A stretch of 35,353 nucleotides of DNA. It comes from a virus. This document shows positions 15,572 to 35,353 of this stretch, piece by piece; position 1 is the first letter of the stretch, and each line of letters starts with the position of its first letter. The notes under the pieces are model-generated. The model did no database searches, had not been told where the DNA came from, and saw only the letters and a program-made list of their open reading frames with translations. A program made the position numbers and the translations under genes. Location: the IMG/VR virus record IMGVR_UViG_3300013018_000009, positions 1-35,353 of that record, one strand, 5' to 3'.

Positions 15572-16168
15572 TTATGCTAATTCTTCAATAATTAATTTTA
15601 TTTTGTCGTCTTTGTTAAGCTTAGAATAACCACTGATTTCCTTTTCTTTGCAAAGGTCATCAAGATCGGTTGAAGTGAAAGCATCATCTAAAGCTTTCTC
15701 ATCTAATTCAACTTCTTGGCCGTCGAATTCTACTGTGTTGATTTTTACTTCTACAGTTGAATCAACCTCATCTGCAGCATCTTCTTCAACCTCATCTTTA
15801 GCAGCTTCTTCTAAAGTTTTATCGGCTGCTTCTTTAGCAGCGTCTTCAATTTCTTTTTCTTCTTCGGTTGGCTCGTCTACTGGTTCTTCATCTTCATTGT
15901 CGACTGGCTCGTCAACCTTTTTTTTCATCGCCAGTTGTTCTGGTCTGAATCTCTTTTGTCTGACTTTTTTGGGTTCTTCAACTTTATCTAAATTAACTAT
16001 CTTAATTTTACCACCTTTTTCAAGCAACTTCAAACCTTCTGTAAGTGGTGCATCGTCAGTGTTGAAAGTTGGAATATTTGATTTATCTTTGTACTTTTCA
16101 ACGTTCTTAATTGTATACCCCTGCCATGCTGTGAAACCAAAACCTAAGTATTCAATCCTGTAATTCAT
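15572..16168 (-). CDS. Acidic head protein with C-terminal Rho-N/HeH-like domain
   Basis: 198 residues in three parts. The N-terminal domain (1-60) is a small alpha/beta fold with YLGFGFTAWQGYTI. A linker (about 64-145) starts with the basic block EEPKKVRQKRFRPEQLA (64-80) and becomes strongly acidic, rich in E, D and A. The C-terminal 35 residues (LDDLCKEKEISGYSKLNKDD) match the short helix-extended-helix pattern of Rho-N/SAP-like domains, which often bind nucleic acid. The basic block is shared with the protease candidate (see repeat entries). It follows the capsid gene and its terminator. A head-tail junction or capsid-associated role is inferred. It lacks the K-x-A motif series. Confidence 0.55.
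   Translation of the reverse strand: MNYRIEYLGFGFTAWQGYTIKNVEKYKDKSNIPTFNTDDAPLTEGLKLLEKGGKIKIVNLDKVEEPKKVRQKRFRPEQLAMKKKVDEPVDNEDEEPVDEPTEEEKEIEDAAKEAADKTLEEAAKDEVEEDAADEVDSTVEVKINTVEFDGQEVELDEKALDDAFTSTDLDDLCKEKEISGYSKLNKDDKIKLIIEELA
15930..15979. repeat. 50-bp direct repeat, copy 1 (in acidic head protein gene)
   Basis: Fifty bases match 19959-20008 with one mismatch (T against C). Both copies are read in the same frame and encode EPKxVRQKRFRPEQLA. Identity at nearly all silent positions points to recent DNA duplication or gene conversion rather than protein-level convergence. Confidence 0.9.
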
Positions 16169-16256: not shown

Positions 16257-17198
16257 TTATGCTGGGTTCCCGTCGTATAATTCTTCAGCACCAGAAAGCA
16301 CCATTTTACCTACAGCTTTGTAGTTACCTAAGTTGAATCCTGTGTAGTACCAGGAGCTCATTTTCAGTAGGTCTTTATCTTTCTGCATCCAGAATGTTGG
16401 ATCTCCCAGAGCAAAAGCACTTCCAAAAAACTGTGGTGAAGTTGCAACGTAAATAACACCTGGTTTAATTACATCACTGTTACTTGTAGTGATGAGTCTT
16501 TTTCCACCAATTTTAAGTTGCTCTACACCGTCTTCAATTACTCTAGTGATTAATCCCCCGACTTCTGTATGATTCCAGCTATAAGCATCGTTTAATGTTG
16601 AACGGTGCATAATAACTGTGTCTGACTTCAATCTTTCTGTATCAATCATATTGAAAAGTTTTGTGAAGTCATCCTTTTGGAAAGTAGAGTTAGTAGATGC
16701 AAGATAGTTACCATTAAGTTTAACAGCACTATTAACGATTTTGAAGAAGTAATCATCTTCCTGCTCCTGCATATCTAATACTACGTTCTGGCGAATGATG
16801 TCAGTGATAGGAATGCGGATGTTCTGCAATTCCATTTCATTTTTTTCAAATACTGGAGAAGCGTACTTTAAAAATGGTATGATGAATTTATCACCAGTTA
16901 TGTATTCTCCGGTAGGTTCACCTCTCATAGTCAGTTTCATAGCATAGGAGTCTGGCTCTCTATCAAGTAACATATACCCTGTATCAGAGTTATCTTGATC
17001 AATCTGATATCTTGGATCCTCAGTTGTTACTCTCTCAAAGCTATCTCCAAAGAAGCGTCTCATGACACCTTCTTCACGGAGTTTCATTCTTACATAGTTA
17101 CTACCAGCAACGCTAGCTTCTTTAATTTTGCTAGGGTCTTCAATAATACTCATAAAGTTTTCGTTGAATTGCTCAACGCTAATGTTATCGAAATTCAT
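16257..17198 (-). CDS. Major capsid protein (HK97 fold)
   Basis: 313 residues with the feel of an HK97-type capsid protein: a helical N-terminal arm (residues 1-28), then FFGDSFERVTTEDPRY, an extended-loop-like section near 70-100, a long central helix region, and a C-terminal strand GNYKAVGKMVLSGAEELYDG typical of the P/A-domain end. KIKEAS at residues 24-29 matches the K-x-A motif found throughout the head block and is the likely processing point, removing 28 residues. The start has AAAAGGAGGAATACATAA before the ATG. It follows the decoration candidate by 27 bp and is followed by a stable hairpin, as expected for the most abundant mRNA. Confidence 0.85.
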   Translation of the reverse strand: MNFDNISVEQFNENFMSIIEDPSKIKEASVAGSNYVRMKLREEGVMRRFFGDSFERVTTEDPRYQIDQDNSDTGYMLLDREPDSYAMKLTMRGEPTGEYITGDKFIIPFLKYASPVFEKNEMELQNIRIPITDIIRQNVVLDMQEQEDDYFFKIVNSAVKLNGNYLASTNSTFQKDDFTKLFNMIDTERLKSDTVIMHRSTLNDAYSWNHTEVGGLITRVIEDGVEQLKIGGKRLITTSNSDVIKPGVIYVATSPQFFGSAFALGDPTFWMQKDKDLLKMSSWYYTGFNLGNYKAVGKMVLSGAEELYDGNPA

Positions 17199-17682: not shown

Positions 17683-18453
17683 TTATGAATTATTCATTAC
17701 GAAATCAAAAATGGGGTTCCCTGAATTAGCAGATGCTTTCTTGGAAAGATCCCCTACATCTAATAAAGACTTTTCAGCGACCTTATCCATAACTCTCATT
17801 TCGACTTCGAATTCCTCTTCATCCATTGAAGCGAATTTTTCTAACTGTTCAGGGATCTCATCAACAGAGATTTGTTCCATCTTTGCCATTTTAATGAGTT
17901 TATTAAAAGCTTTATCCCTTTGTTCATTCTGTCTTTTAATCGAAGCAATCTTTTCTAAACTTTCTTCCTTCTCTCCTTTCAGTTGTTTGATAACTGATGC
18001 GGATTTTTTTAAATCGGAAGCAGTTTTAGTTAGTAATTGGGAGATGTTTGCCACCTTTTCATTTCCCCCTTTCTTGAATTCTTTCAATACTTTTTGTTTT
18101 TCTTTCTTTCGTTTGTTATCAATATGAGCCTTCAACCCTCCTGCAGCAAGCATTGGTATTGCCATTTTTTTTGCAGTTGATAAAGGTTTAGCTGCTGAAT
18201 AATCTTTTGCCTTTTTAAAAGTGTCGCCACCTAAAGCAACATTTTTAGTAGTCTCGAAAGCTTTTCCTATACCAGGAGCATTACTTAAGGTTTTACCGAG
18301 TGAACGATTTGCATTAGAAATTCCTTTTACTTTATTTAAAACTTGTTGATTGACTTTCCTTTTAGCAATATCTTTAGGTAGTTTATGTTTAAATTGGTTA
18401 TACTTTGTTGCCCCAGCCTTTAAAGCACTACCTAATATGCTAGAGTTCCCCAT
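17683..18453 (-). CDS. Scaffold-like head protein with many K-x-A sites
   Basis: 256 residues, lysine-rich, helical. The first 100 residues are basic and glycine/alanine-rich; the rest is coiled-coil-like. K-x-A motifs recur: NEKVA, LTKTA, LEKIA, LIKMA, LEKFA, MDKVA and others, eight by eye, spaced through residues 125-245. A protein just before the capsid genes, helical and full of putative protease sites, behaves like a scaffold that is destroyed on maturation. The ATG at 18453 overlaps the upstream gene by 14 bp and has no clear ribosome binding site, so translation is probably coupled. Confidence 0.6.
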   Translation of the reverse strand: MGNSSILGSALKAGATKYNQFKHKLPKDIAKRKVNQQVLNKVKGISNANRSLGKTLSNAPGIGKAFETTKNVALGGDTFKKAKDYSAAKPLSTAKKMAIPMLAAGGLKAHIDNKRKKEKQKVLKEFKKGGNEKVANISQLLTKTASDLKKSASVIKQLKGEKEESLEKIASIKRQNEQRDKAFNKLIKMAKMEQISVDEIPEQLEKFASMDEEEFEVEMRVMDKVAEKSLLDVGDLSKKASANSGNPIFDFVMNNS

Positions 18454-19330: not shown

Positions 19331-21112
19331 TTAGTTAATAATCTTTTTAATAGCAGTTCCGGCCAGCATATCAACACCTCTACCCAATGATTGCATCGGG
19401 GAAGCGGATGTAACAAATATATTTCCAATATTATTTAATGTATCATATTTTTTGTCAATCTCTTTATATCTATTATACAACTGATCGGTATCATTAATCA
19501 AATCTGAAGTAGATTTTTTTGGTGATACCATTCGGGCCGCTTCTTTTGTTATAACATTGTCATAATTCATTTGACTTAAAGCTTTTTTAATGGCAATCCA
19601 ATCATCTTTTGAATTAGTGGCTCCGATACCTAACATAGCAACTAGGTTGGGGTGCTCTTCAAGGAACTTCATTAACTTGGCATCACTGTCAAAACGACCC
19701 GCGATATCCGATGCTAAATAAGCAGCAGGTACTCCTGCAAAAACTCGACCACCTAAATTAGATGCGGTCTTTTCAAATTCCTTACCTGCTCTTTTCATCT
19801 CACCTAAACCTTTGACGGCGCCAACACTACCGGCGGTCATTACAGGTAATAACCACGGGTGATCTTTGATCTTCTTATCAAGACCTTCTGCATTGTAATC
19901 GGGGACTTGATTTAAGTATCTGTTGTATAAAAGACTGCCAGCAATTATTCCAGGTGTTGCCAGTTGTTCTGGTCTGAATCTCTTTTGTCTGACTTCTTTG
20001 GGTTCTTCTGCTGCCATCTTAATGAGTCTTGGATATAAATACTCTTTGATTGCTGACCTCTCTTTAACATAAGGTATTCCAACTTTAAAGACGTCAAAGT
20101 CTAAATCACCAAATAACGGGTTAAACTTTTTGTTGACTTCTCTTTCTGGAATATCTATATTAAGGATAATGTCGTCAAAGTCATCCGGGTTATGCCCCAA
20201 CTTATTTAAATATATCCTTTGGAATTCTTCCGGTTTTAAAATGATACCTAAAGTTAAAAGAGAAGTTAATACATCATCAATAGGTTTTTCAGAATAAAAA
20301 TCCAAAACCTTATCGGAAATGTTTTTTTCTCTTTCTTTGATATCAGAAAAACCCCTCATTAATTTAGCCGCAATCTGTCCGGCATCATTGGAGATAGTTT
20401 CACCTGGGATCTCTTTTTCAATATCCGCTTTCTTTTTAAAGCCATTCAATACAGAAGCGACCTTTTTTAATGACTTAGCGGTCCTGTCCGCACCAATGTA
20501 GACAAAACTGATATCAAAAAATCTCGGTTTCTTATTTATCATATAAACTTTTCTGCCGTCAGGCAATACTTCACCTTTATGATATTTTATATGATCACAG
20601 TAATCGTTGGTAGTCTTGGCGACATTACCACAGATACTGCAAACATCATATGGAACCTTACATCCCATTGAAACATCCCACATCTTATCATTGTCGATGT
20701 CTGATGCAATCTTAGGGGCTTTATCCCTATCAATCCTAACAATAAGTTCTACCCTATGCATTCTCGGATTGAAGTGGGCAAACATTATATCCCCTTTAGA
20801 TTTTTTCGGGTCTTTATTTTTATGATGAGTAAATACATATCCGAATTCTTCGAAGGTCTTATAGTGATCTAATATTTCTTGTTCTTCAAAATAATCAGAG
20901 TTAACATTGTCTCCCCAAATCTCACCACTGCTTACAGCAGAAACTAAAACGTAAACGGAGTCTGGGTCAGACTCGATATTATCTTCAATGTAGTTTTTAA
21001 TCTCATCAGAGATTGTACCAGAAGCCACTTTTTCAAGAGAATCAGAAGGGTCGATCTCCTGTAGTGAAAATTCTTCATCGTTATAATTAAAGTGTATTGT
21101 TTTTTCTATCAA
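19331..21112 (-). CDS. Prohead maturation protease candidate with zinc-finger insert and long C-terminal extension
   Basis: 593 residues, TTG start after AAAGGAGGGGTCAAC. Residues 53-205 look like a herpes/HK97-type prohead serine protease: VLVSAVSSGEIWGDNVNSDY, then THHK with H96/H97 as histidine candidates, VELIVRID, and WDVSMGCKV with S148 as the likely nucleophile (V-S-M-G is the usual context). A cysteine insert follows S148 (C158-x2-C161 and C172-x-H174), probably zinc-binding. The remaining 380 residues are unlike a protease. They carry K-x-A sites (FKKKA, LIKMA, FEKTA, TKEA) and the basic block EEPKEVRQKRFRPEQLA at 369-385. LEKVA30 and LKKVA219 bracket the protease domain, suggesting self-processing. 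Protease identity is by motif and gene order. Confidence 0.65.
   Translation of the reverse strand: MIEKTIHFNYNDEEFSLQEIDPSDSLEKVASGTISDEIKNYIEDNIESDPDSVYVLVSAVSSGEIWGDNVNSDYFEEQEILDHYKTFEEFGYVFTHHKNKDPKKSKGDIMFAHFNPRMHRVELIVRIDRDKAPKIASDIDNDKMWDVSMGCKVPYDVCSICGNVAKTTNDYCDHIKYHKGEVLPDGRKVYMINKKPRFFDISFVYIGADRTAKSLKKVASVLNGFKKKADIEKEIPGETISNDAGQIAAKLMRGFSDIKEREKNISDKVLDFYSEKPIDDVLTSLLTLGIILKPEEFQRIYLNKLGHNPDDFDDIILNIDIPEREVNKKFNPLFGDLDFDVFKVGIPYVKERSAIKEYLYPRLIKMAAEEPKEVRQKRFRPEQLATPGIIAGSLLYNRYLNQVPDYNAEGLDKKIKDHPWLLPVMTAGSVGAVKGLGEMKRAGKEFEKTASNLGGRVFAGVPAAYLASDIAGRFDSDAKLMKFLEEHPNLVAMLGIGATNSKDDWIAIKKALSQMNYDNVITKEAARMVSPKKSTSDLINDTDQLYNRYKEIDKKYDTLNNIGNIFVTSASPMQSLGRGVDMLAGTAIKKIIN
19959..20008. 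repeat. 50-bp direct repeat, copy 2 (in protease candidate gene)
   Basis: Partner of 15930-15979, 49 of 50 bases identical, same reading frame. The flanks diverge at once on both sides, so the duplicated unit is short. Confidence 0.9.
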
Positions 21113-22034: not shown

Positions 22035-22769
22035 CTATTCGATTTCTTCTAATAACTTTTTAGCTTCCTCATCGGACATTCCTTCGATTGTGCTAACTAA
22101 ATTACCTAGATCTTCGTTTTCTTCTTGCTCTTCCAATTCTGAAATTTTACCTTTAAGTTCTGGGGAAGACTGCGCAGCTTCCTTTAAAATCTCGCCAGCT
22201 TCCTCTTCTGTGATGGAATCCAGGAAGTTATTAACTTCTGCTTCTTTAATCATCTCTTCGTTATATACACCAATAGCTTCATCTAACACTTCTGGCTCGA
22301 TACCTGTTACAGAAGCAATCTTTTGTAAGCCGTCAATGTAGAGTTCTTCAGCTGATGCTTGTTTTTCTTTTTTCTTACCTAAAGCTTTATCTGGTCTTAG
22401 TGCGCCCATAACTCCGCCAAAAGCGGCGCCTTGTCCGGCTAATCTTTTTAATTGATTGGCCGAAACATTGCCACCGGTCAACTTAGTACCTAATGCACCT
22501 AATCCAGCTGCACCAGCACCTGTAGAAGCTGCACCAACTAGAGCACCTTTACCTCTTTCTTTTAAAGCTTGTTTCTGTTCATCTGATAATTTGTCAGCGA
22601 GGGCGGCACCTCCGTAACCTAAACCTAATCCAGCAGCTGCAGCAGTGGCTATTTCCTTTTTAGAAAGTTTGCTATTTATGGGGGATCCCCCTCCTGGTAA
22701 AAGACCCGCAACATTCGGGTTAGCAGCAACTTTTTCCATACCTAATTCTGTAATTCTATTAAAATCCAT
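22035..22769 (-). CDS. Tagged internal head protein (15-residue LGMEKVA tag)
   Basis: 244 residues. Residues 1-15 (MDFNRITELGMEKVA) are the shared tag, ending at A15. A glycine-zipper region follows (about 45-125, with AAAAGLGLGYGGAALAD and GAGAAGLGALGTKLTGG). The C-terminal 110 residues are acidic and helical, with KEKQAS, LQKIAS, IKEAE and LKEAA sites. After processing the product would be a short, glycine-zipper peptide, as expected for an internal head protein or a membrane-active ejection protein. Start ATG has AAGGAGGAATACATAA before it. Confidence 0.6.
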   Translation of the reverse strand: MDFNRITELGMEKVAANPNVAGLLPGGGSPINSKLSKKEIATAAAAGLGLGYGGAALADKLSDEQKQALKERGKGALVGAASTGAGAAGLGALGTKLTGGNVSANQLKRLAGQGAAFGGVMGALRPDKALGKKKEKQASAEELYIDGLQKIASVTGIEPEVLDEAIGVYNEEMIKEAEVNNFLDSITEEEAGEILKEAAQSSPELKGKISELEEQEENEDLGNLVSTIEGMSDEEAKKLLEEIE

Positions 22770-23950: not shown

Positions 23951-24793
23951 TTAAGAGTATAATCTAGTTCCGGGGTGCTTTGACTTTTTCACCTCGAAAG
24001 GATTATCTGTTTTTTTATTCTTTATCTTATCATAATGCTTTTTACTTTTGCTTTTGGTCTCGCCTACAAGTGATGCAACTTCCATAGTTTTAAGTGGGTG
24101 TTTAGCCATCTGCAGGGCAATACCAGCAGCTTTTTCTAAACGTTCGTTCAATTCATCTAATCTCGACTTAATTTTACCATAGCTTGCAACCTTTTGCAAA
24201 AACTCATTTTCCTTATCTACAAGAAAATTCACCTCTGATATGTCAGGAATATTTTCTTCTGATGCAGACTTAATTAATTCGTCTGGTGCACCAGCTTTTT
24301 TAATGGAATAAGCAACTATCTTAGGGTTGTTATTTTGCAACTTGGATTTAATCAACTTCACTAAGTGTGGTTTCTTTTCCATTAATTTGACTTCTAGATC
24401 TGATTTTTCCCTCTGCATATTGCCTATCAATGATTTTAGGTCTTCTATATTAATTGTTTCTTTTTCTTCCTCTTCATCATTAATTGTATAATAGGAATCA
24501 TCAAAGCTCAAATCCGGACTTTCAGTTTTCACATCGGTCTCGATTTGGATGCCTTCAATGTTTTTAGGATCAGCAACATCGAACTCTACTGTCTTATCAT
24601 CTGTAGCCTTAAATAACTTAAGGAATACCTTGACATTAGCCTGTTGGGCGATTCTTGCAATTTCTTCATTATTTAGTTCCTCCCGTTTAGCTATTTCCGC
24701 TATTATATCCTCCAAAAGATTTTGATTGTGATCCTCTCCCACTTTTCGAAAATAAGTTTGAACCGCTTCTTTGCTCAAGTTTTGGTAGTTCAT
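23951..24793 (-). CDS. Head-block helical protein with K-x-A sites
   Basis: 280 residues, acidic to basic along its length, helical, without the glycine zipper of its neighbours. An N-terminal site SKEA10 is followed by LQKVAS near residue 203 and LEKAAG near 220, with IKKAG and IKSAS in between. The C-terminal 45 residues are very basic (KSKSKKHYDKIKNKKTDN) and could contact DNA. The start ATG has GGGGGT 6 nt upstream, inside the 84-codon ORF it overlaps by 107 bp. Confidence 0.55.
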   Translation of the reverse strand: MNYQNLSKEAVQTYFRKVGEDHNQNLLEDIIAEIAKREELNNEEIARIAQQANVKVFLKLFKATDDKTVEFDVADPKNIEGIQIETDVKTESPDLSFDDSYYTINDEEEEKETINIEDLKSLIGNMQREKSDLEVKLMEKKPHLVKLIKSKLQNNNPKIVAYSIKKAGAPDELIKSASEENIPDISEVNFLVDKENEFLQKVASYGKIKSRLDELNERLEKAAGIALQMAKHPLKTMEVASLVGETKSKSKKHYDKIKNKKTDNPFEVKKSKHPGTRLYS

Positions 24794-24941
24794 TTTTTAC
24801 CCCCTTTTTGTATTCTGATTTTATTTTAACATTTTTTGGTTTAAATTTGAAATCTGGAAACTTATTTTTAACCTTTTCAATTGGTTTGATTTCATTAGCC
24901 AATTTTTCCATTCCTAAATTTGTGAGATAATCTTTGTTCAT
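24687..24941 (-). CDS. Short tagged head protein overlapping the next gene
   Basis: 84 codons. Residues 1-15 (MNKDYLTNLGMEKLA) are the shared tag with A15, after a strong AAGGAGGTAACC site. The remainder is basic (KNKFPDFKFKPKNVKIK) and then low-complexity serine/glycine where it overlaps the next gene in another frame. The 107-bp overlap is by far the longest in the window. It may be a real tag plus basic peptide, with the last 30 codons accidental; or a frameshift near the A5G5TA6 run may join it to the 280-aa gene. Confidence 0.5.
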   Translation of the reverse strand: MNKDYLTNLGMEKLANEIKPIEKVKNKFPDFKFKPKNVKIKSEYKKGVKNELPKLEQRSGSNLFSKSGRGSQSKSFGGYNSGNS

Positions 24942-24951
24942 GGTTACCTCC

Positions 24952-25635
24952 TTAATACAATAAAGTATTACCTTGTCTTAGGTATCGTTCTCTATCTTCG
25001 GTTTGTAACTTTAACTTATCATGGAGCTTTTGTTTTTTGGTGTATTCCGGTTTTAATTTCTTCTGCAATTTCTTACCTAAACCAGCACCCAATGTTCCAC
25101 CAGAAAGTGCCCCGATTCCAGTTGATAATGGAGTGTTTAGATTTTTTAGTTTGGATAAACCAATACCTGCCAACCCACCAGCTACACCACCACCTAATGT
25201 TGCTCTCGTGGGTAATTTATTATTCCTTTCAACTCTCTTTTTGTATTCTTTATCTTCTGGGGTTTCGTTTAACTTATTTTGTAACTGTTTTAGTTTATTA
25301 TCTTTATCTACAGGGGTCTCATATTTACCATAAGCTCTAGACATTAGATATTTATCTTGACGATGAGGAACATTTTTCAACCAGTCGTCATTGTTGATTT
25401 TTTTATCAACCTCTTTCCACTGAGGAAGAATTTCTTCTTTCCACTTTTTAAAATCCTCTAATGGTTGTTCATCACCCATTTCCTGAACTACCCTTTTTAA
25501 ATGATCTTCTTCATCAGTGATGTCACTTTGATAAGGCCATTTATGGTGATTGGGATTTAATAGTCCTCCAGCTGCCGAACCATTAGCATCCGCTATTTTC
25601 TCCATACCTAAATTCATTACCACTTCTTTTATCAT
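24952..25635 (-). CDS. Tagged internal head protein sharing a module with the ferritin fusion
   Basis: 227 residues. The tag MIKEVVMNLGMEKIA ends at A15, which supports the ATG at 25635. A helical module follows (QPLEDFKKWKEEILPQW near 55-75), then a glycine zipper (GGVAGGLAGIGLSKLKN, about 145-185), and the end DRERYLRQGNTLLY. The helical module, zipper and ending match the C-terminal part of the EncFtn fusion (26251-27300). This makes it the untethered, tagged version of that module. Soluble N-terminal part, membrane-like zipper. Confidence 0.6.
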   Translation of the reverse strand: MIKEVVMNLGMEKIADANGSAAGGLLNPNHHKWPYQSDITDEEDHLKRVVQEMGDEQPLEDFKKWKEEILPQWKEVDKKINNDDWLKNVPHRQDKYLMSRAYGKYETPVDKDNKLKQLQNKLNETPEDKEYKKRVERNNKLPTRATLGGGVAGGLAGIGLSKLKNLNTPLSTGIGALSGGTLGAGLGKKLQKKLKPEYTKKQKLHDKLKLQTEDRERYLRQGNTLLY

Positions 25636-26250: not shown

Positions 26251-27300
26251 TTAATAGTCTAAGTTGTGGCCTTGTCTTAAGTATCTTTCTCTGTCATAAA
26301 GGTTATTTTCTCTTTTATTGACTACTCCTTTTTTATTGTACTTCGCTTTATCTTTTACAAATTTTCTAGCGATGGGACTAGTTGCTAATCCTCCAACCAC
26401 TCCCGTTGCTAAACCACCCACGCTACCGTAAAGTGCTCCAGTACCTGCTCCTGCTAAACCCTTTAATATTTTACCGGGGGTAGATTTACCTTTGGAAGAA
26501 CCTACATAGCCACCAATTCCTAAACCGGCTAACGTCCCGAGGCCAGCACCACCTATACCTGTATTACTTATGTATTCACTTGAATGTTGTGATTTGCCTT
26601 CGGGTAACCATTTGTCATTGGGATATTCTTTTCTTTTAGCTCTTTCTAATTTCTTTTTTAATCCTTGGTATTTACCATCACTGCGTACGGGGTTTTTATG
26701 GTTTTCTTTAATATATTCTTGAAGTTTTTGTTGCAGTTTCCTCTGCCTTTCCCCTTCTGCTTGTTCGATTAAACTCTCAAATTTTTGAACCTTCGGATCT
26801 GACAAAACTTCCTTTTGAAAATTATCCCACCTAGGTTTAATAGTGTTTTTCCATTTATTAAATTTATCTAACTCGCCTTGGTTGATATAATCATTTTCTA
26901 ATTCTCGTTTCAACCCAGCTTCTTCGGTTTCTACATCGGTTAAGTATTCAGTTTCACCCCAATGAGTTTGGTGTGCCAACTTTTCTCTCAACGCCGCTTC
27001 CTTTTTAAGACCATCTTCATTATATTCTGCCATCAGTTCTCCATCCTGGTATAGATATTCATCAATCATATCAGACCACACTGGAGAAATTCTTCTAAGG
27101 TATTCAATACCTATTAATGCATGTTCAATTTCTTCGTGAGCATTATGTAAAACAAACTTTCTTACTAAAGGATTATCTGTCGCTGCTGCTCTTTGGTAAT
27201 ACCAATCGACTGCTTCTATTTCTTCGATTATGGATTGTAGTATTCTGTGTATATCCATATCTTCATTTGAAAGTAATTCATGTGGTTCATGGTAATTCAT
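26251..27300 (-). CDS. Encapsulated-ferritin (EncFtn) domain fused to a phage head-protein module
   Basis: 349 residues. Residues 1-95 closely resemble bacterial encapsulated ferritins: YHEPHELL, then EEIEAVDWYYQRA and HNAHEEIEHALIGIEYLRR. From memory of the Rhodospirillum rubrum EncFtn, ligands E32, E62 and H65 correspond here to E27, E57 and H60, with W33/Y34 and entry-site E26/E29 also kept. Such proteins oxidise ferrous iron and work inside encapsulin shells. Residues 99-110 hold KKEA and REKLA sites, which would cut the ferritin domain free. The C-terminal 240 residues (FNKWKNTIKPRW, glycine zipper, DRERYLRQGHNLDY) match the tagged 227-aa protein. Start ATG abuts the helicase stop after AAAGGAGGAAAA. 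The ferritin call is firm; packaging in the head is inference. Confidence 0.88.
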   Translation of the reverse strand: MNYHEPHELLSNEDMDIHRILQSIIEEIEAVDWYYQRAAATDNPLVRKFVLHNAHEEIEHALIGIEYLRRISPVWSDMIDEYLYQDGELMAEYNEDGLKKEAALREKLAHQTHWGETEYLTDVETEEAGLKRELENDYINQGELDKFNKWKNTIKPRWDNFQKEVLSDPKVQKFESLIEQAEGERQRKLQQKLQEYIKENHKNPVRSDGKYQGLKKKLERAKRKEYPNDKWLPEGKSQHSSEYISNTGIGGAGLGTLAGLGIGGYVGSSKGKSTPGKILKGLAGAGTGALYGSVGGLATGVVGGLATSPIARKFVKDKAKYNKKGVVNKRENNLYDRERYLRQGHNLDY

Positions 27301-28824
27301 TTATTTTCCTCCTTTTGCCAACTTCTCCATGCCTAAATCTATCATTGCTTGTTTTTTCATGTTTCCTCCCATTTGATCGTACACCTGTGATTGTAATGCT
27401 TTTTTCTTTTCGGCAACACTGTCTATCCATTCTTCAACAGAGCGGTTGGGTTTTCTAATGGAACTTAAAAACTTCTTCTCGGGTTCTACTGCTAAATACT
27501 TTTTAATATTTACTTTATCGGCTTTCGAGTTTGCTCTGACCCCTCTACCAATCGCCTGTTTGGTTACTTCTGGGTTCCAGTTAGGGTCAAAAATAAACTC
27601 TTTATCTACATTAGGTAATGATATTCCTTCCTTACCTGTAGGTGATGTAACGAAAGCTTTTGTTTTATTTTTCTTAAAGTTTTCAATCTGTTCATCTTTA
27701 TCTTTCTTTCTCATACCACCGGATATTCTAGATGACGAAACACCTTTTGATTTCAAGGCATCTTGGATAATATCTGCTCCATGCTGGTTATAGTTAGAAT
27801 AAATCATAGACCCAAATTCGCTGTCGTCGTCTTTTAAATCTTCTAATAACCTCTGGGCTTTGGCCGATATTTCGTGACCTTTATCTCCTTTAAGTATAGC
27901 ACCTGGATTGTTTGATGCAACTCTGGCATTTGCTATTGAGCCAAAGAAAGACACGCTATCTCTCTTATCTGGAACAATGTCTCTTTTAACAGCCTTCCTT
28001 ACTGGCCCGGGCAAATCATTCCAGGCATACTTGTAGGCTTTCATTTGTTCTTTAGTCATTGGTACCCTAACTTTTTCTTCTTCAACCTCTGGTAAATCTT
28101 GATCTCCTCGTTCATAATCGAAATAATTTTGGAGATATTCCCTAACTTCATCATCGGGGTCAAATCTTTCTCCTACTGTTTGTTTCTTACCTAAACCTAT
28201 AAAACTTAAAGGACCGAACTTTTTAGTTTCCGGTTTAACATACTTTTTATTAAATTCCGTTTGGTTGTATTTATCTTCACCTTCGATTAAATTAATCAAA
28301 GATGCAACATCACCGGGAGCATTATTCATTGGGGATGCCGTTAAGAAAGCTTTATTTTCCATATTAGGCGACACTTCTTTAATAGCTTTATAAAGGTTTG
28401 TGTTTTGATTTCTAGCGTTGTGTGCCTCATCTACTACCATTGAATTGGAATTTGCCGAATACTTCTCAGGATCTTTTGAAAACAAAGAGTTAGACACTAT
28501 TACATAATCGGCGTTGGGGTCAACTTCTTCACTTCCGGAGTCGATAACTTGAACCGAACTGTCAGTAAATTTATTTATTCCTTCTTTTTCAAAATTTGTT
28601 TTTAAACTTGCTGGAACAACAACTAAAGTCTGTCCAGGTGATTTTTCTTTTAATTTTTCCATAGCGGCTATACTGGTTAAGGTTTTACCTGTACCAGTGC
28701 CATGGGCCACAACCAAAGAATTGTTATCTAAAAGTTTATTGACGGCTCGTTTTTGATAATCTCTTAAATTGACATCATCTTTTAATGCTGCTTCTTTTAA
28801 TAACTTCTTTAATACCTTCTTCAT
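27301..28824 (-). CDS. SNF2/superfamily 2 DNA helicase-translocase with a C-terminal head tag
   Basis: 507 residues from the ATG at 28824 (GGAGGTG 5 nt upstream, stop of amylase overlapping as TGATG). Walker A GTGTGKT is at about 42-48, DEAH at 132-135, FLTASPMNN follows as motif III, and the second RecA-like domain ends with SPTGKEGISLPNVD and QAIGRGVRANS (motifs V and VI). This is a SNF2-like ATP-dependent DNA translocase. The N-terminus KKLLKEAALKDD carries a K-x-A site. The last 19 residues are MKKQAMIDLGMEKLAKGGK, a complete copy of the 15-residue tag plus KGGK. It is likely packaged in the head and may act on phage DNA during or after ejection; that is inference. Tight coupling with both neighbours. 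Confidence 0.85.
   Translation of the reverse strand: MKKVLKKLLKEAALKDDVNLRDYQKRAVNKLLDNNSLVVAHGTGTGKTLTSIAAMEKLKEKSPGQTLVVVPASLKTNFEKEGINKFTDSSVQVIDSGSEEVDPNADYVIVSNSLFSKDPEKYSANSNSMVVDEAHNARNQNTNLYKAIKEVSPNMENKAFLTASPMNNAPGDVASLINLIEGEDKYNQTEFNKKYVKPETKKFGPLSFIGLGKKQTVGERFDPDDEVREYLQNYFDYERGDQDLPEVEEEKVRVPMTKEQMKAYKYAWNDLPGPVRKAVKRDIVPDKRDSVSFFGSIANARVASNNPGAILKGDKGHEISAKAQRLLEDLKDDDSEFGSMIYSNYNQHGADIIQDALKSKGVSSSRISGGMRKKDKDEQIENFKKNKTKAFVTSPTGKEGISLPNVDKEFIFDPNWNPEVTKQAIGRGVRANSKADKVNIKKYLAVEPEKKFLSSIRKPNRSVEEWIDSVAEKKKALQSQVYDQMGGNMKKQAMIDLGMEKLAKGGK
27316..27360 (-). other. Tag-coding segment with its own internal start and ribosome binding site
   Basis: Within the helicase gene, the tag codons (27360-27316) begin with ATG and are preceded by GGGAGGAAAC (27370-27361), a good ribosome binding site at proper distance. 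Reading from here gives a 19-residue peptide ending at the helicase stop. The next codon after that stop is the ATG of the ferritin fusion, in the same frame. So one TAA separates tag from ferritin. Confidence 0.6.
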
Positions 28825-29885
28825 CAATTCACCTCCAGCTTATAGGATTGTCTTTCAACAGTTACTTCATTGAATGTTCTTTCATCTAAACTATTATTAA
28901 TGTATAAAGTATAATTACCTCTTTCGGCGACATATAAGTCGTTGTCAGTGTGTGCGACAACAGGATATTCTTCGGCAAAATATTTTCTAGGTTTAATCAA
29001 TTCATCTATTTTATCTTTGAGTTCGTATTCAAAGTAATCTTCCCAGAAGACTACCGCTGGCTCTTTCTGGAACAAGATATAAGCATACGCCAGTTCTTTA
29101 TTATTGATTATGGGTTCACTTCTTTCGACGTCATGGTTGGAAACAAAATTAACCCTATTAGAGCTGGTCCCTAATGCTTTCATTGAAGATTTTGGATTCA
29201 TACACATTTCCTTCAATTTATAAAACAATGGAAAATTAAACAACGGTAGATCGATGTAATCAGTTAACGCCTCTAGTAAAACATCGTTTCCACTCCAGTA
29301 TTCCCCAACCATAAAATTATTGAATGAGTTAAAAAAATCTTTAACGAAATCCCAACGCATTTCCTTTAAATTGTCTAACCTAAAATTATCAAAACCGATA
29401 TCCTTTAACCAAGTGGCCCATTCGATAAGACCTTTTTTCATATATTCATTGTCATTATAATAACAAATAGTTTCACCAAAAGAACTCCTGGTGTTGCACC
29501 CTCCACAATCTCTGCAGAAATGTTTATAATCTTTTTGAAACAACGAGCTGTCAAACTTAGTGTATGTATCTTTATCTAAACTTGGGTTATATTCTTTTTT
29601 ACCTCCAAGCATATGCCCCATCACAAGATCAGCCATAACGTTGATTCCTTCATAGTGGAATTTATCAATTAAATCTACCAGTTCTTCTTTGGTGCCAAAT
29701 TTAGAATCGAGATTATAATGGTCCTTTATATCATAGCCCATCGAGTCATCACCGGCCATCCCCCTTGAAGGTGGAGGTAACCAGATATCAGTAAACCCTT
29801 TTTCGGCGATCGCGCCAGTTAAAAATGATAATTCATTGTACCAGTCAGAAGGGCAATCCCAATAAAATCCCTGTAGTATTAGCAT
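28824..29885 (-). CDS. GH13 alpha-amylase-family glycoside hydrolase
   Basis: 353 residues from the ATG at 29885 (a GTG at 29888 overlaps the previous stop; no clear ribosome binding site, so coupled). The order of GH13 blocks is intact: LILQGFYWDCPSDWYNEL at the start, DIWLPPPSRGMAG, region I ADLVMGH (G replaces the usual N), region II FRLDN with nucleophile D171, region III MVGEYW with acid E195, region IV VSNHD with D252, and a short beta C-domain (LYVAERGNYTLYINNS). It hydrolyses alpha-1,4-glucan bonds in glycogen or starch. No signal peptide, so it acts inside the cell or the virion. A cysteine group (C124, C127, C130, C141) sits in the small B-domain. No head tag. A metabolic gene within a phage head operon is unusual. 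Confidence 0.9.
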   Translation of the reverse strand: MLILQGFYWDCPSDWYNELSFLTGAIAEKGFTDIWLPPPSRGMAGDDSMGYDIKDHYNLDSKFGTKEELVDLIDKFHYEGINVMADLVMGHMLGGKKEYNPSLDKDTYTKFDSSLFQKDYKHFCRDCGGCNTRSSFGETICYYNDNEYMKKGLIEWATWLKDIGFDNFRLDNLKEMRWDFVKDFFNSFNNFMVGEYWSGNDVLLEALTDYIDLPLFNFPLFYKLKEMCMNPKSSMKALGTSSNRVNFVSNHDVERSEPIINNKELAYAYILFQKEPAVVFWEDYFEYELKDKIDELIKPRKYFAEEYPVVAHTDNDLYVAERGNYTLYINNSLDERTFNEVTVERQSYKLEVN

Positions 29886-29887
29886 CA

Positions 29888-31339
29888 CTAACCACGATCG
29901 TTTTCATATTCTCTGATTATTCGCTTTAATTTTTCTGTCATCTCATCATCTCTCCTTGGAGAAAATGTAGTTATAACCGCTTCGTTTTCTCCCTTTAAGG
30001 CGACATTGGCTTTCTTCATTCTTCTTGCTAATTCACCAATAGTTCCTCCGCCAGCTGCACCTAATAAAGTGTTTCTCGTTTTGTTATCTTTATTTTTTGT
30101 GAGTTTGTTGGCGGCAAAACCTCCAATACCCGCACCTGCTAATCCAGGGGCATATCTTTTAGCATCTGATTTAAAATTATGTTTCCGGGTTCCGAATTCT
30201 CCGGTGCGTTTGTTTTTCTTTAGGTCGATATAGTCAGCTGCTAGTTTTTCGATGGTGGCCTCTTTTTCTTTACCTCTAACTTTATCTCCTAATGTAGCTC
30301 CTAAAGCCCCGCCAACCATTAAACCGCTACCACCTAATGTAACATTACTCATTAAGTGGTCTTTTTTTCGACTTTTCATTAATTTTTTTATACTCTTTTC
30401 AACTTCTTTTTTATATTCAGGGTGATTTAATTCTTTTGCTTGTTGGCTCATTCCTTTAAAAGTATTAAAATAAGGTCTCATTGTTTTATCGTATTTTTGG
30501 TTTAATTTCTTAGCTCCTACTAACCCTAATCCTGCACCGGCTGCTGCACCAACCCCTAAACCAATTTTGGTAGAATTGTCTTTAACCCACTTTTTAGTTT
30601 TGTCTAATTTTGATTCTTCTTCAGCAATCTTGTTCATGCCAAGTTGTACAAAGGCATTCTTTTCTTTGTTTTTAATTTCATCGCCCGCAGCAGCTCCGAA
30701 TAAACCGCCTGCACCTGCTCCGAGACCACCCAAGACGGCATAATTTTTTAAGTCATCTTTTTTCCTTTTTTTAATCATATCTTTCATATAACCCTCAGTC
30801 TTTTTGTTTAATTTTTGACCTTCTCTTCCTAAATTGTTGCCTATATCTCTCAATTTATCATAGGCTTCAAAATAAGGTTTATCGAGATTAGTCAGTGTTT
30901 TGTTTAATTTCTTAGCTCCCGCTAACCCTAATCCTGCACCGGCTGCTGCACCAACCCCTAAACCAATTTTGGTAGAATTGTCTTTAACCCACTTTTTGGT
31001 TTTGTCTAGTCTTGATTCTTCTTCAGCAATTTTGTTCATGCCAAGTTGTACAAAGGCGTTCTTTTCTTTTGGTTTCTTTAAAGCTCCGACACCGGCACCT
31101 AAAATTCCGCCACCGGCACTACCTATAGCACCACCCATAATTCCCGAATGGACCATTTTATTTAACATAAATGGGTCATCAGTATCTGAATTTATTGCCG
31201 ACAATAAAGCAGCGGCAGGTGCTAAACTTTTCATCCCTACATCAGAACCTTTCAAACCATATTCTACCGCATTTTGCAATCTGGGGTGCGACTTTCTTTC
31301 CGCCTCTTTTATCAAAGTCTTCAATATTTCTTTTTTCAT
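29888..31339 (-). CDS. Polyprotein-like head protein with tandem tags and glycine zippers
   Basis: 483 residues. The N-terminus MKKEILKTLIKEA ends in a K-x-A site at 13. Two copies of a 56-residue unit follow, each opening with the tag KEKNAFVQLGMNKIA, then KKWVKDNSTKIGLGVGAAAG and a glycine zipper. Linkers are lysine-rich helices. A further double site, KEKEAT/IEKLAAD, begins the last third (YAPGLAGAGIGGFAANKL). If every site is cut, the protein yields four or so zipper-containing fragments. Membrane-active ejection proteins or internal core proteins are plausible roles. Start ATG has ATAGGAGGATTTAAA; it follows the terminase by 11 bp. Confidence 0.6.
   Translation of the reverse strand: MKKEILKTLIKEAERKSHPRLQNAVEYGLKGSDVGMKSLAPAAALLSAINSDTDDPFMLNKMVHSGIMGGAIGSAGGGILGAGVGALKKPKEKNAFVQLGMNKIAEEESRLDKTKKWVKDNSTKIGLGVGAAAGAGLGLAGAKKLNKTLTNLDKPYFEAYDKLRDIGNNLGREGQKLNKKTEGYMKDMIKKRKKDDLKNYAVLGGLGAGAGGLFGAAAGDEIKNKEKNAFVQLGMNKIAEEESKLDKTKKWVKDNSTKIGLGVGAAAGAGLGLVGAKKLNQKYDKTMRPYFNTFKGMSQQAKELNHPEYKKEVEKSIKKLMKSRKKDHLMSNVTLGGSGLMVGGALGATLGDKVRGKEKEATIEKLAADYIDLKKNKRTGEFGTRKHNFKSDAKRYAPGLAGAGIGGFAANKLTKNKDNKTRNTLLGAAGGGTIGELARRMKKANVALKGENEAVITTFSPRRDDEMTEKLKRIIREYENDRG
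30500..30667. repeat. 168-bp tandem coding repeat, copy 2
   Basis: Nearly identical to 30902-31069, offset 402 bp (134 codons), in frame. It encodes a tag plus helix plus glycine zipper. Most differences are silent or conservative (R to K, A to V), so the duplication is fairly recent. Confidence 0.9.
30902..31069. repeat. 168-bp tandem coding repeat, copy 1
   Basis: Partner of 30500-30667. Includes the tag codons 31069-31025 and the sequence encoding GLGVGAAAGAGLGL. Confidence 0.9.
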
Positions 31340-31350
31340 TTTAAATCCTC

Positions 31351-32940
31351 CTATTTAAATGGTATCTCCTGGTCTATATGTGCTGCAAACTTAGCATAAA
31401 CTGTCGCCTGCATAATGTCATCAGGAGTATCGTGATCGTATTTAAATCTTCTTAATCTATCTGAATACTCTCTTGTTAAAGCAGTGTAATCTTCATAATA
31501 TGCCCTGTCGTCAGCTTCTTTTCTTTCCATGTACTCAAAGGGTGGGAAGATTAACTGCTGGTTCTGGATTGGAAATATGACAGAATCCATAGCTTTGGTT
31601 CTATTGGTTACATACATTATTTGTTCCGGTTTCCAGTTCCAGGTTTGTTTCTGATTACCACTATGATAGATTTCCCAGACCTTGTCATAACCACCTATTC
31701 TCCTTTGCAGTCTTAAATTTTCCTTATGACCGGCGCCATGGTCGCAGGCCATAATGTTGCATCTGAAACGGTGATACATTTTTTCTAATTCATCTAATAC
31801 ATGGTCAGGATCAGCGGATTCTTTGTGATCGAATTTTTTAATATGTACTACGTGAAATTTGCCGTCTATGAAACCTCCAACGACTGCCGCATTAAATGAA
31901 CCTTTGTTTTCTCCCCAGTCAACCCCCATATATAATGGGTTTTTCTGGGTTTTATCAAAATCTGCTTTTTCAAGCCAAAATCCTGTACAGGTATTTTTTA
32001 TTTTAGAAATTGAAATAGGTTTATCGGCCGAGTCATAACTTAAACCAAAAACCTCATTGTATAATTTATCTTCAGGATACTTCAAAAATTTGTCATAATA
32101 AAATTTTTCCCATTTCTTTGGTTGAGTTAATCTGCCGGTTTGCAGCTGTGATATATGGAAACCTGCTGTTCTATTTTCCGGTGCTAAAGAATACCATTGA
32201 CCGTTTCTAGTATCTATTGGTTTGCCACAGTTTTTGCAGACTAAACCTTTTTCGGTAACCATCTTTTCTGGCTCTGTATCCATACGGTTGTATGTATTAC
32301 AGGACTTACATGGCACTATCCAGATGTTTTGGGTAGACTGCTGCCACAACTTCTCTAAAGGATTGTCAAAAGTTTTCGGGGTACCACAGGCGGCGAATAT
32401 CTGATATTCACTTGCTGTTAGAGTCTCTTTTAAGACTGGTATGTTATCCGAAAGCATGTCCTGGTACTCATCAATATTTAACATATCCCCAGACAATCCA
32501 CGCATAGTGTCAGCTGTATGGTAGGCATATCCCAAGAATATTGTGGCATTATTAATTAAAGTTTTTTCAAAGACTTGGTCGGTGGTTGTTTTATCTAAAT
32601 AATATTTTTGTATAAAATCTGATGATCTGATTGATTTCCTTAATCTATCATTTGAAAATCGTCTCGTCTGTTTCGAAGTAGGTGAAACATAAATCGAACG
32701 AAAGTAAGGTATTAAAGATGAGTATGTAATGTGTCTGTTGGATAAAGTTGTTGATTTCTCTACTTGACGAGCTGTTCTTAAAACCAAAGATGAATAGAGA
32801 TTATCATAAATCGGATAGAGGTACTCCCTCCAATTCCACTTTCTACCTGGTCTTTCATCTTTGAATTTAAATTTCTGCCCTTCGATGGGTATAAATGCTT
32901 TAGTAAAATCGGATGGTCTAACTGATAACTTCTTTTTCAT
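31351..32940 (-). CDS. terL: Terminase large subunit (DNA packaging ATPase-nuclease)
   Basis: 529 residues. ATPase: TARQVEKSTTL (56-66) is the Walker A-like loop, with E where glycine is usual, and MLNIDEYQDM (153-162) is Walker B with catalytic E158. A zinc ribbon (CKSC then CKNC, about residues 218-248) resembles lambda gpA-type terminases. Nuclease: acidic residues in MGVDWGENK (about 338-346), ACDHGAGHK (about 396-404) and DTPDDIMQA (about 500-508) give the RNase-H-like triad. It pumps DNA into the prohead. First gene of the minus-strand operon; start ATG has AAAAGGAGGTACTTTAG, promoter at 32961-32989. No small terminase gene is next to it. Confidence 0.93.
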   Translation of the reverse strand: MKKKLSVRPSDFTKAFIPIEGQKFKFKDERPGRKWNWREYLYPIYDNLYSSLVLRTARQVEKSTTLSNRHITYSSLIPYFRSIYVSPTSKQTRRFSNDRLRKSIRSSDFIQKYYLDKTTTDQVFEKTLINNATIFLGYAYHTADTMRGLSGDMLNIDEYQDMLSDNIPVLKETLTASEYQIFAACGTPKTFDNPLEKLWQQSTQNIWIVPCKSCNTYNRMDTEPEKMVTEKGLVCKNCGKPIDTRNGQWYSLAPENRTAGFHISQLQTGRLTQPKKWEKFYYDKFLKYPEDKLYNEVFGLSYDSADKPISISKIKNTCTGFWLEKADFDKTQKNPLYMGVDWGENKGSFNAAVVGGFIDGKFHVVHIKKFDHKESADPDHVLDELEKMYHRFRCNIMACDHGAGHKENLRLQRRIGGYDKVWEIYHSGNQKQTWNWKPEQIMYVTNRTKAMDSVIFPIQNQQLIFPPFEYMERKEADDRAYYEDYTALTREYSDRLRRFKYDHDTPDDIMQATVYAKFAAHIDQEIPFK

Positions 32941-35216: not shown

Positions 35217-35234
35217 ATCCCTTATTTTTTTAGG

Positions 35235-35334
35235 GTGGACTAGTGGATCAGGGTGGACCTCGTTATATGAGGGTCCACCCTTTGTTATCCCTGTTGTGTC
35301 GGCATTAAGTGGATTGGTGGACCTAAAAGTGGAG
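35235..35334 (+). repeat. GTGGA repeat cluster with an embedded hairpin
   Basis: GTGGAC or a one-base variant (GTGGAT, GTGGAG) starts at 35235, 35243, 35253, 35309, 35317 and 35329; an inverted copy, GTCCAC, is at 35273. AGGGTGGACC (35250-35259) and GGTCCACCCT (35272-35281) form a 10-bp stem. No gene is present from 35107 to the window end (247 bp). Confidence 0.7.
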
Positions 35335-35353
35335 ATATCAATAAATATAAAAA

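Follow-up and report, generated by a model that had tools for sequence, protein, structure and literature searches.

The window analyzed here is the whole of a viral contig of 35,353 bp and carries a minus-strand head-and-tail gene block, with the tail genes at its left. An ORF encoding an SNF2-type motor, hereafter the helicase, lies in this block among the following genes and features.

16257..17198 (-), predicted major capsid protein, phrog_2522 (3e-13), with K-E-A at residues 26-28 (17115-17123)
19331..21112 (-), predicted prohead protease fused to a further region, phrog_18299 head maturation protease (1.5e-11)
22035..22769 (-), head-block protein with N-terminal LGMEKVA tag at 22725-22745
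24687..24941 (-), head-block protein with N-terminal LGMEKLA tag at 24897-24917
24952..25635 (-), head-block protein with N-terminal LGMEKIA tag at 25591-25611
26251..27300 (-), EncFtn-like (encapsulated-ferritin-type) protein, PF22277 (2.5e-28, residues 2-86)
27301..28824 (-), SNF2-type motor ORF, 507 aa (PF00176, PF00271, phrog_62, AlphaFold2)
27316..27360 (-), C-terminal tag MKKQAMIDLGMEKLA of the helicase, residues 489-503, with LGM[EN]K[LIV]A common to five other places in the window
28420..28431 (-), DEAH box of the helicase, residues 132-135, with D132, E133 and H135 invariant in 34 sequences
28681..28701 (-), Walker A stretch of the helicase, residues 42-48, with G44, G46 and K47 invariant in 34 sequences
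28789..28824 (-), N-terminal element MKKVLKKLLKEA of the helicase, residues 1-12, ending in a K-E-A that falls on the same alignment columns as the K-x-A of helicases of 28-30% identity
29888..31339 (-), Gly-zipper protein with start MKKEILKTLIKEA and LGMNKIA at 31025-31045 and 30623-30643
31351..32940 (-), terminase large subunit (context), phrog_675 (5.6e-73), N-terminus without tag

The helicase ORF starts with an ATG at 28824, preceded by GGAGGT; a TTG stands one codon ahead of this ATG. The stop of the gene before it overlaps the helicase start, and the gene after it begins immediately behind the helicase stop codon. The overlapping upstream gene (28824-29888, minus strand), between the Gly-zipper protein and the helicase, is GH13 alpha-amylase-like (PF00128, 5e-15) and is alone in its stretch in having no K-x-A. 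The Gly-zipper protein is built of two repeat units, each with the start AFVQLGMNKIAEEES and a Gly-rich stretch; the repeat number appears variable, since its counterpart in the same-species contig L003 has 263 aa and the protein here 483. A scan for promoters and terminators gave 53 promoter-like sites against 53.5 expected, with no excess.

The preliminary description had presented an SNF2-like helicase within a head-cargo block, and both parts hold. The motor is intact, with matches to PF00176 (8.7e-22), Helicase_C (PF00271, 2.4e-17) and phrog_62 (2.1e-58), and the head-block genes around it are rich in K[LIVM]A. The 507-aa protein has the two-lobed motor, Walker A, DEAH box and motif VI arginines of the SNF2/SWI2 group (superfamily 2), the arginines being R427 and R430, invariant in the alignment of 34 relatives. 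The AlphaFold2 model has a mean pLDDT of 89.8, and its structural matches are SNF2 remodellers, including INO80 (Z 31.9, rmsd 2.8, 414 aligned). Its termini, at which the tags lie, are of low confidence (mean pLDDT 52 for residues 1-10 and 56 for 501-507). The helicase is predicted to be an active-looking SNF2-type double-stranded DNA translocase. A domain search of the protein returned SNF2/helicase domains only, with no methyltransferase domain, and none of the extra RapA-type domains are present in it. Poxvirus NPH-I, an SNF2-type ATPase that serves RNA polymerase and is located in the virion, is a sequence match to the helicase family profile (E 2.1e-23). PADLOC matches were set aside, as they hit the SNF2 parts of many defence proteins and nothing specific.

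A K-x-A at the start of the helicase and a 15-residue tag at its end had also been described from the window. Both were found: K-E-A occupies residues 10-12, in a column conserved in relatives, with ALKDD directly after MKKVLKKLLKEA, and the C-terminal tag is followed by KGGK as the last four residues. The strictly shared part of the latter is the seven residues LGM[EN]K[LIV]A, which occur six times when the window is translated in all six frames, each time within a head-block gene and in its reading frame. Each of the six copies has a different DNA spelling, which argues for a protein motif that has been kept rather than a recent DNA repeat. The broader K[LIVM]A is about ten times as dense in head-block proteins as in tail-side ones (31 in 4,668 aa versus 3 in 4,843 aa; Fisher p 2.7e-7). 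The helicase carries a short N-terminal element common to head proteins and outside the folded domain, as would be expected of head cargo with a targeting propeptide of the T4 CTS type.

The EncFtn-like protein encoded directly downstream has K-E-A and K-L-A after its ferritin domain, together with a Gly-rich region, and is predicted to be a cargo enzyme of the encapsulin type, here carried by an HK97-type phage. It had no match among 50,697 phage records, and a search of viral contigs returned two same-species contigs only.

Comparison of the window with two same-species contigs, L077 and L078 (helicase 99% identical), bears on the C-terminal tag. Against L077, the helicase has four amino-acid changes (483, 484, 490 and 507), all flanking residues 491-505, which are unchanged, and two synonymous changes fall inside the tag. 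Against L078 there are six amino-acid changes, four of which are those just listed; again the tag has none. The tag thus appears to be held constant amid changed surroundings, although the numbers are small. This observation bears on the view that the helicase is an ordinary intracellular protein, working in the infected cell only, with incidental K-x-A stretches. K-x-A is short, and the C-terminal tag starts with its own ATG and extends into the ribosome-binding site of the next gene, as a captured N-terminal tag would. In addition, untagged SNF2 helicases exist in replication modules, as in Streptomyces phage GiJojo, where the gene lies beside those for DnaB and primase. We nevertheless consider this view very improbable, given the unchanged tag, the position-specific N-terminal K-x-A in 37 of 50 distinct relatives and the detection of an orthologue in virions, the last two of which are described below.

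K-x-A also marks the capsid proteins of the group. Capsid relatives were gathered with a pattern far from the N-terminus, giving 25 distinct proteins from the 78 of 80 loci with intact starts; the other two loci were dropped as having no capsid ORF with an intact start. K-x-A stands directly before a conserved [YF][VI]R.KLRE in 23 of the 25, at the same exact distance in 22. Its middle residue can be L, V, I, A, M or E, and K-L-G stands in one of the two proteins that depart from the pattern. The protease domain of the window enzyme is flanked by two K-V-A sites (21023-21031 and 20456-20464), and the homologues of this enzyme have K-x-A just before the domain in five of six cases and just after it in four of six. 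His96 and Ser147 are invariant in six protease sequences. The top structural match of the protease model, whose confidence is moderate (pLDDT 62), is T4 gp21 (Foldseek E 0.039; Z 7.2, rmsd 3.1, 123 aligned), with herpesvirus proteases ranking after it. A conserved His and Ser in a modelled gp21/herpesvirus protease fold suggest that ORF 19331-21112 encodes a gp21-type enzyme. A further stretch, EEPK[EK]VRQKRFRPEQLA, is common to this protease fusion (19331-21112, minus strand) and an otherwise unlike protein at 15572-16168 (minus strand).

In T4 (CTS and gp21) and in giant phages such as SPN3US (gp245), proteins are described as being guided into the prohead by short N-terminal propeptides that its protease cuts, and the C-terminal propeptide of the SPN3US protease has been proposed to target that protease itself. 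The T4 and SPN3US proteases are described as cutting after glutamate (x-x-E), whereas the conserved residues in the window group are K and A. The simplest reading is a putative cleavage site with K as P3 and A as P1, and the K-x-A in 23 of 25 capsid proteins would argue against x-x-E cutting by the window protease. Terminase N-termini show no K-x-A excess (2 K.A versus 2 A.K in 21). As it recurs in the capsid protein, protease and helicase of related phages, K-x-A is not a quirk of the window, and from its distribution it is predicted to be a head-maturation mark in this phage group.

Scans with the window helicase or the window terminase as single sequences found the two same-species contigs only, and alignments were therefore used as queries. 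An alignment of 11 helicases returned 184 relatives, from which 80 loci were kept. Two of these were dropped as having no helicase ORF in gene calling; the remaining 78 and Salmonella phage Arash gave 59 representatives after dereplication at 80%. At least 12 residues precede the motor core in 50 of the 59, and two of the nine without this room still carry K-x-A. Among the 50 distinct relatives with room, 37 have a K-x-A that ends 0-15 residues ahead of the core, 29 of the sites lying at a distance of 5 or 7, and the other 13 are without it. Composition shuffles gave a mean of 11.0 and a maximum of 21 (2,000 shuffles), and windows inside the helicase core gave a mean of 1.5 and a maximum of 7 (500). 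In the more distantly related SNF2 helicases of ten named phages, K-x-A never precedes the core (37/50 versus 0/7 of the distant helicases with room, p 2.9e-4). Pseudanabaena phage PA-SR01 encodes an untagged helicase inside its head block.

Three other origins of the motif were rejected. K-x-A is not part of the motor fold, since Arash-type helicases begin after it; it is not a compositional effect, given the shuffle mean of 11.0 against 37 observed; and it is not a property of all N-termini of these phages, as the terminases have no excess.

Aligned helicase tags read roughly F-x-D-E-L-E-K-[EIQ]-A-[AK]-L, and the K-x-A of the window falls on the same columns as those of the helicases of 28-30% identity (MKKVLKKLLKEAAL and MNAFWRGFLKQAKL). 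Lineages have their own versions, including FWxGFxKxA, YEDMIYKEA, IEKIA and the two forms of the window, and a helicase tag resembles proteins of its own locus beyond expectation (9/39 in the top 5%, p 4e-4). In one relative (L087) KVADYIDGMYKEA flanks the motor on both sides, and another (L145) has FWEEFEKQA and FWEGFEKQA in a two-ended arrangement; that of the window is thus not unique. Proteins encoded near the helicases share the signal: residues 5-45 of 316 neighbours hold 134 K.A versus 63 A.K (p 4.7e-7, with sites treated as independent), and the two are even later in the chain. Inside the helicases, after residue 60, the counts are 141 K.A versus 259 A.K; this control is not neutral there, and shuffles were used too.

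PHROGs and Pfam scans of 134 neighbouring proteins gave mostly unknowns and did not decide the function; the known matches were a few proteases, DNA ligases, sigma factors and polymerase subunits. A search of genome contigs with the helicase alignment returned three metagenome-assembled contigs with no clear host.

Arash is the closest named relative for both the helicase and the terminase. Its helicase, gp217, has the same motor core at about 28-30% identity and lies at the same end of the structural block, in a phage with related terminase, capsid protein and protease. Unlike the window helicase, gp217 starts at the core, without N- or C-terminal K-x-A, and its gene directly follows that of the RNA polymerase beta' subunit, gp216, where the structural block has its head end. 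The reported virion proteomics places gp217 among the most abundant proteins: 38 unique peptides and 1,148 spectra were assigned to it, compared with 40 and 1,210 for gp216 and 30 and 1,333 for the capsid protein (PMC10585845). Two other Arash helicases are each listed there with 2 unique peptides, and the authors state that enzymes in virions may be carry-over (PMC10585845). An N-terminal K-x-A is present in Arash gp220-gp224 and in the capsid protein gp226, where it reads K27-E28-A29, and absent from gp217 and gp216. The presence of gp217 in virions without a terminal K-x-A indicates that the tag is not always needed, and the helicase of the Arash lineage would enter the head by another route, perhaps with the polymerase.

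On this evidence, the clade-wide K-x-A head signal together with the orthologue in Arash virions, the proposal in the preliminary description that the helicase is packaged is well supported. The address tags common to the capsid protein, the protease and internal head proteins suggest that the helicase is very probably head cargo, delivered with the DNA. Processing at K-x-A is probable, and the two together are likely. Packaged phage helicases are not unprecedented, as P1 DarB and a predicted one in phiKZ illustrate.

A motor in the prohead or at the portal could instead help in head assembly or DNA packaging rather than act after ejection. The helicase gene does lie near that of the terminase in the window, and a terminase is found within 5 kb in 7 of the 59 representatives, that of the window included. 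Across relatives, however, it is the catalytic core that is kept and not the position relative to the terminase, and such a helper need not stay abundant in mature virions, as gp217 is reported to do. We regard a packaging or assembly role as improbable.

A possible partner for a head-packaged motor is a phage RNA polymerase. Contig G037 matches the window at 100% identity over 24,529 bp and, about 28 kb past the left end of the window, encodes a polymerase of about 2,200 residues (PF00562, 1.3e-64); an RNA polymerase of its own is therefore very probable for the window phage. PF00562 was found in 40 of 45 records searched, comprising 39 of the 42 records of other helicase representatives and G037, and the misses include two same-species fragments; 16 of the 58 non-window representatives, mostly short records, were left out of this search. 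None of the ten phages with more distant SNF2 helicases matched PF00562. Six of ten terminase relatives with no helicase match did, so shared ancestry may explain the co-occurrence. Adjacency of the two genes was set aside as an argument: only 6 of 59 distinct loci have a polymerase gene at most two ORFs from the helicase, and in the window phage the two are not neighbours. The co-occurrence favours the helicase as a candidate partner of a virion polymerase, although shared ancestry could give the same pattern. We give the phage RNA polymerase somewhat less than an even chance of being the partner.

Known systems offer precedents for such a pairing. RapA is an SNF2-type ATPase serving RNA polymerase (PMC8666675) and, unlike the window protein, has extra RapA-type domains; for the window group, a RapA-type comparison would rest on a polymerase in 39 of 42 records, adjacent in 6 of 59 loci and also present in 6 of 10 terminase relatives that gave no helicase match. 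The Swi2/Snf2 helicase of the phiKZ group has a phyletic pattern tied to phage RNA polymerase and has been suggested as a RapA equivalent (PMC7824862), and a predicted helicase is reported to be packaged in phiKZ heads (PMC13282480). The phiKZ-group protein is described as Rad25-related, and the excerpted accounts report no K-x-A tag.

The main rival is an anti-restriction or anti-defence motor that, packaged in the same way, would travel the incoming phage DNA after ejection and strip or block host restriction complexes. The analogy is with P1 DarB, whose SNF2 part is thought to act on restriction complexes. DarB and other polyvalent proteins are reported as head-carried, SNF2-containing and targeted by an N-terminal packaging signal of fewer than 30 residues (PMC9024508, PMC5512222). 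In the excerpted text that signal is not described as K-x-A, and DarB is a protein of about 250 kDa with a methyltransferase, whereas the window protein is a stand-alone motor, neither fused to a methyltransferase nor of several domains.

Some relatives of the window helicase are of the latter kind: ORFs L090, L095, L099 and L115 fuse the SNF2 motor to InPase, LigD/DNA ligase or NUDIX domains, with tag-like K-x-A before several domains. They recall polyvalent proteins, a class likely to be packaged in virions and described as having InPase among its domains (PMC5512222). K.A enrichment in the linkers of these fused relatives (55/70 K.A versus 53/89 A.K, p 0.016, with borders partly hand-set) gives modest support. 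A DarB-like role does not predict the strong co-occurrence with a phage RNA polymerase, and together with the missing methyltransferase domain this makes it unlikely for the window protein. The action suggested in the preliminary description, displacing host DNA-bound proteins or helping DNA in, is possible and has no specific support; the co-occurrence speaks at least equally for a partner in transcription.

From the motor, the tags, their conservation and their sharing with capsid protein and protease, all read from sequence, we infer a scheme for targeting, cleavage, ejection and function. The short N-terminal helix ending in K-x-A, and here the second, C-terminal tag, would direct the helicase into the prohead. 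The protease encoded at 19331-21112 would recognise the K-x-A sites of capsid protein and cargo as well as its own, and would trim the N-terminal element of the helicase after the alanine. The motor would then be ejected with the DNA and could act before any phage gene expression. Its most likely job would be to serve the phage's own RNA polymerase, as RapA does for the bacterial enzyme, by freeing stalled polymerase or by clearing bound proteins off the incoming DNA.

More broadly, and tentatively, a large clade of RNA polymerase-carrying phages may use a portable K-x-A address and a prohead protease of new specificity by which head enzymes are loaded and trimmed, with the motor as part of a virion-delivered transcription kit. 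The motor of such a kit might be the counterpart of RapA or of poxvirus NPH-I, clearing the incoming genome for the virion polymerase.

Packaged SNF2 motors, the predicted phiKZ head helicase, and N-terminal and proposed C-terminal targeting propeptides are already known. The K-x-A signal on a stand-alone motor appears to be new, as a search of the open-access literature returned nothing that describes K-x-A as a head signal or a stand-alone SNF2 protein as tagged cargo. The head cargo of uncultured phages is mostly unannotated at present, and a short, readable address would make virion-delivered enzymes predictable from sequence alone in many of them. Two testable matters are raised: that the prohead protease is specific for K-x-A and not for x-x-E, and for what reason an SNF2 motor accompanies a phage-encoded RNA polymerase.

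Two further observations concern the related contigs. At locus L070 (13172-19999 of contig G005) a fused phage RNA polymerase lies beside a tagged helicase and contains an intein with a LAGLIDADG domain. The final 123 bp of the window (35231-35353) are present as an inverted identical copy at 18010-18132 of G037, about 14 kb past the other end of the window, and represent either a repeat or an assembly breakpoint.
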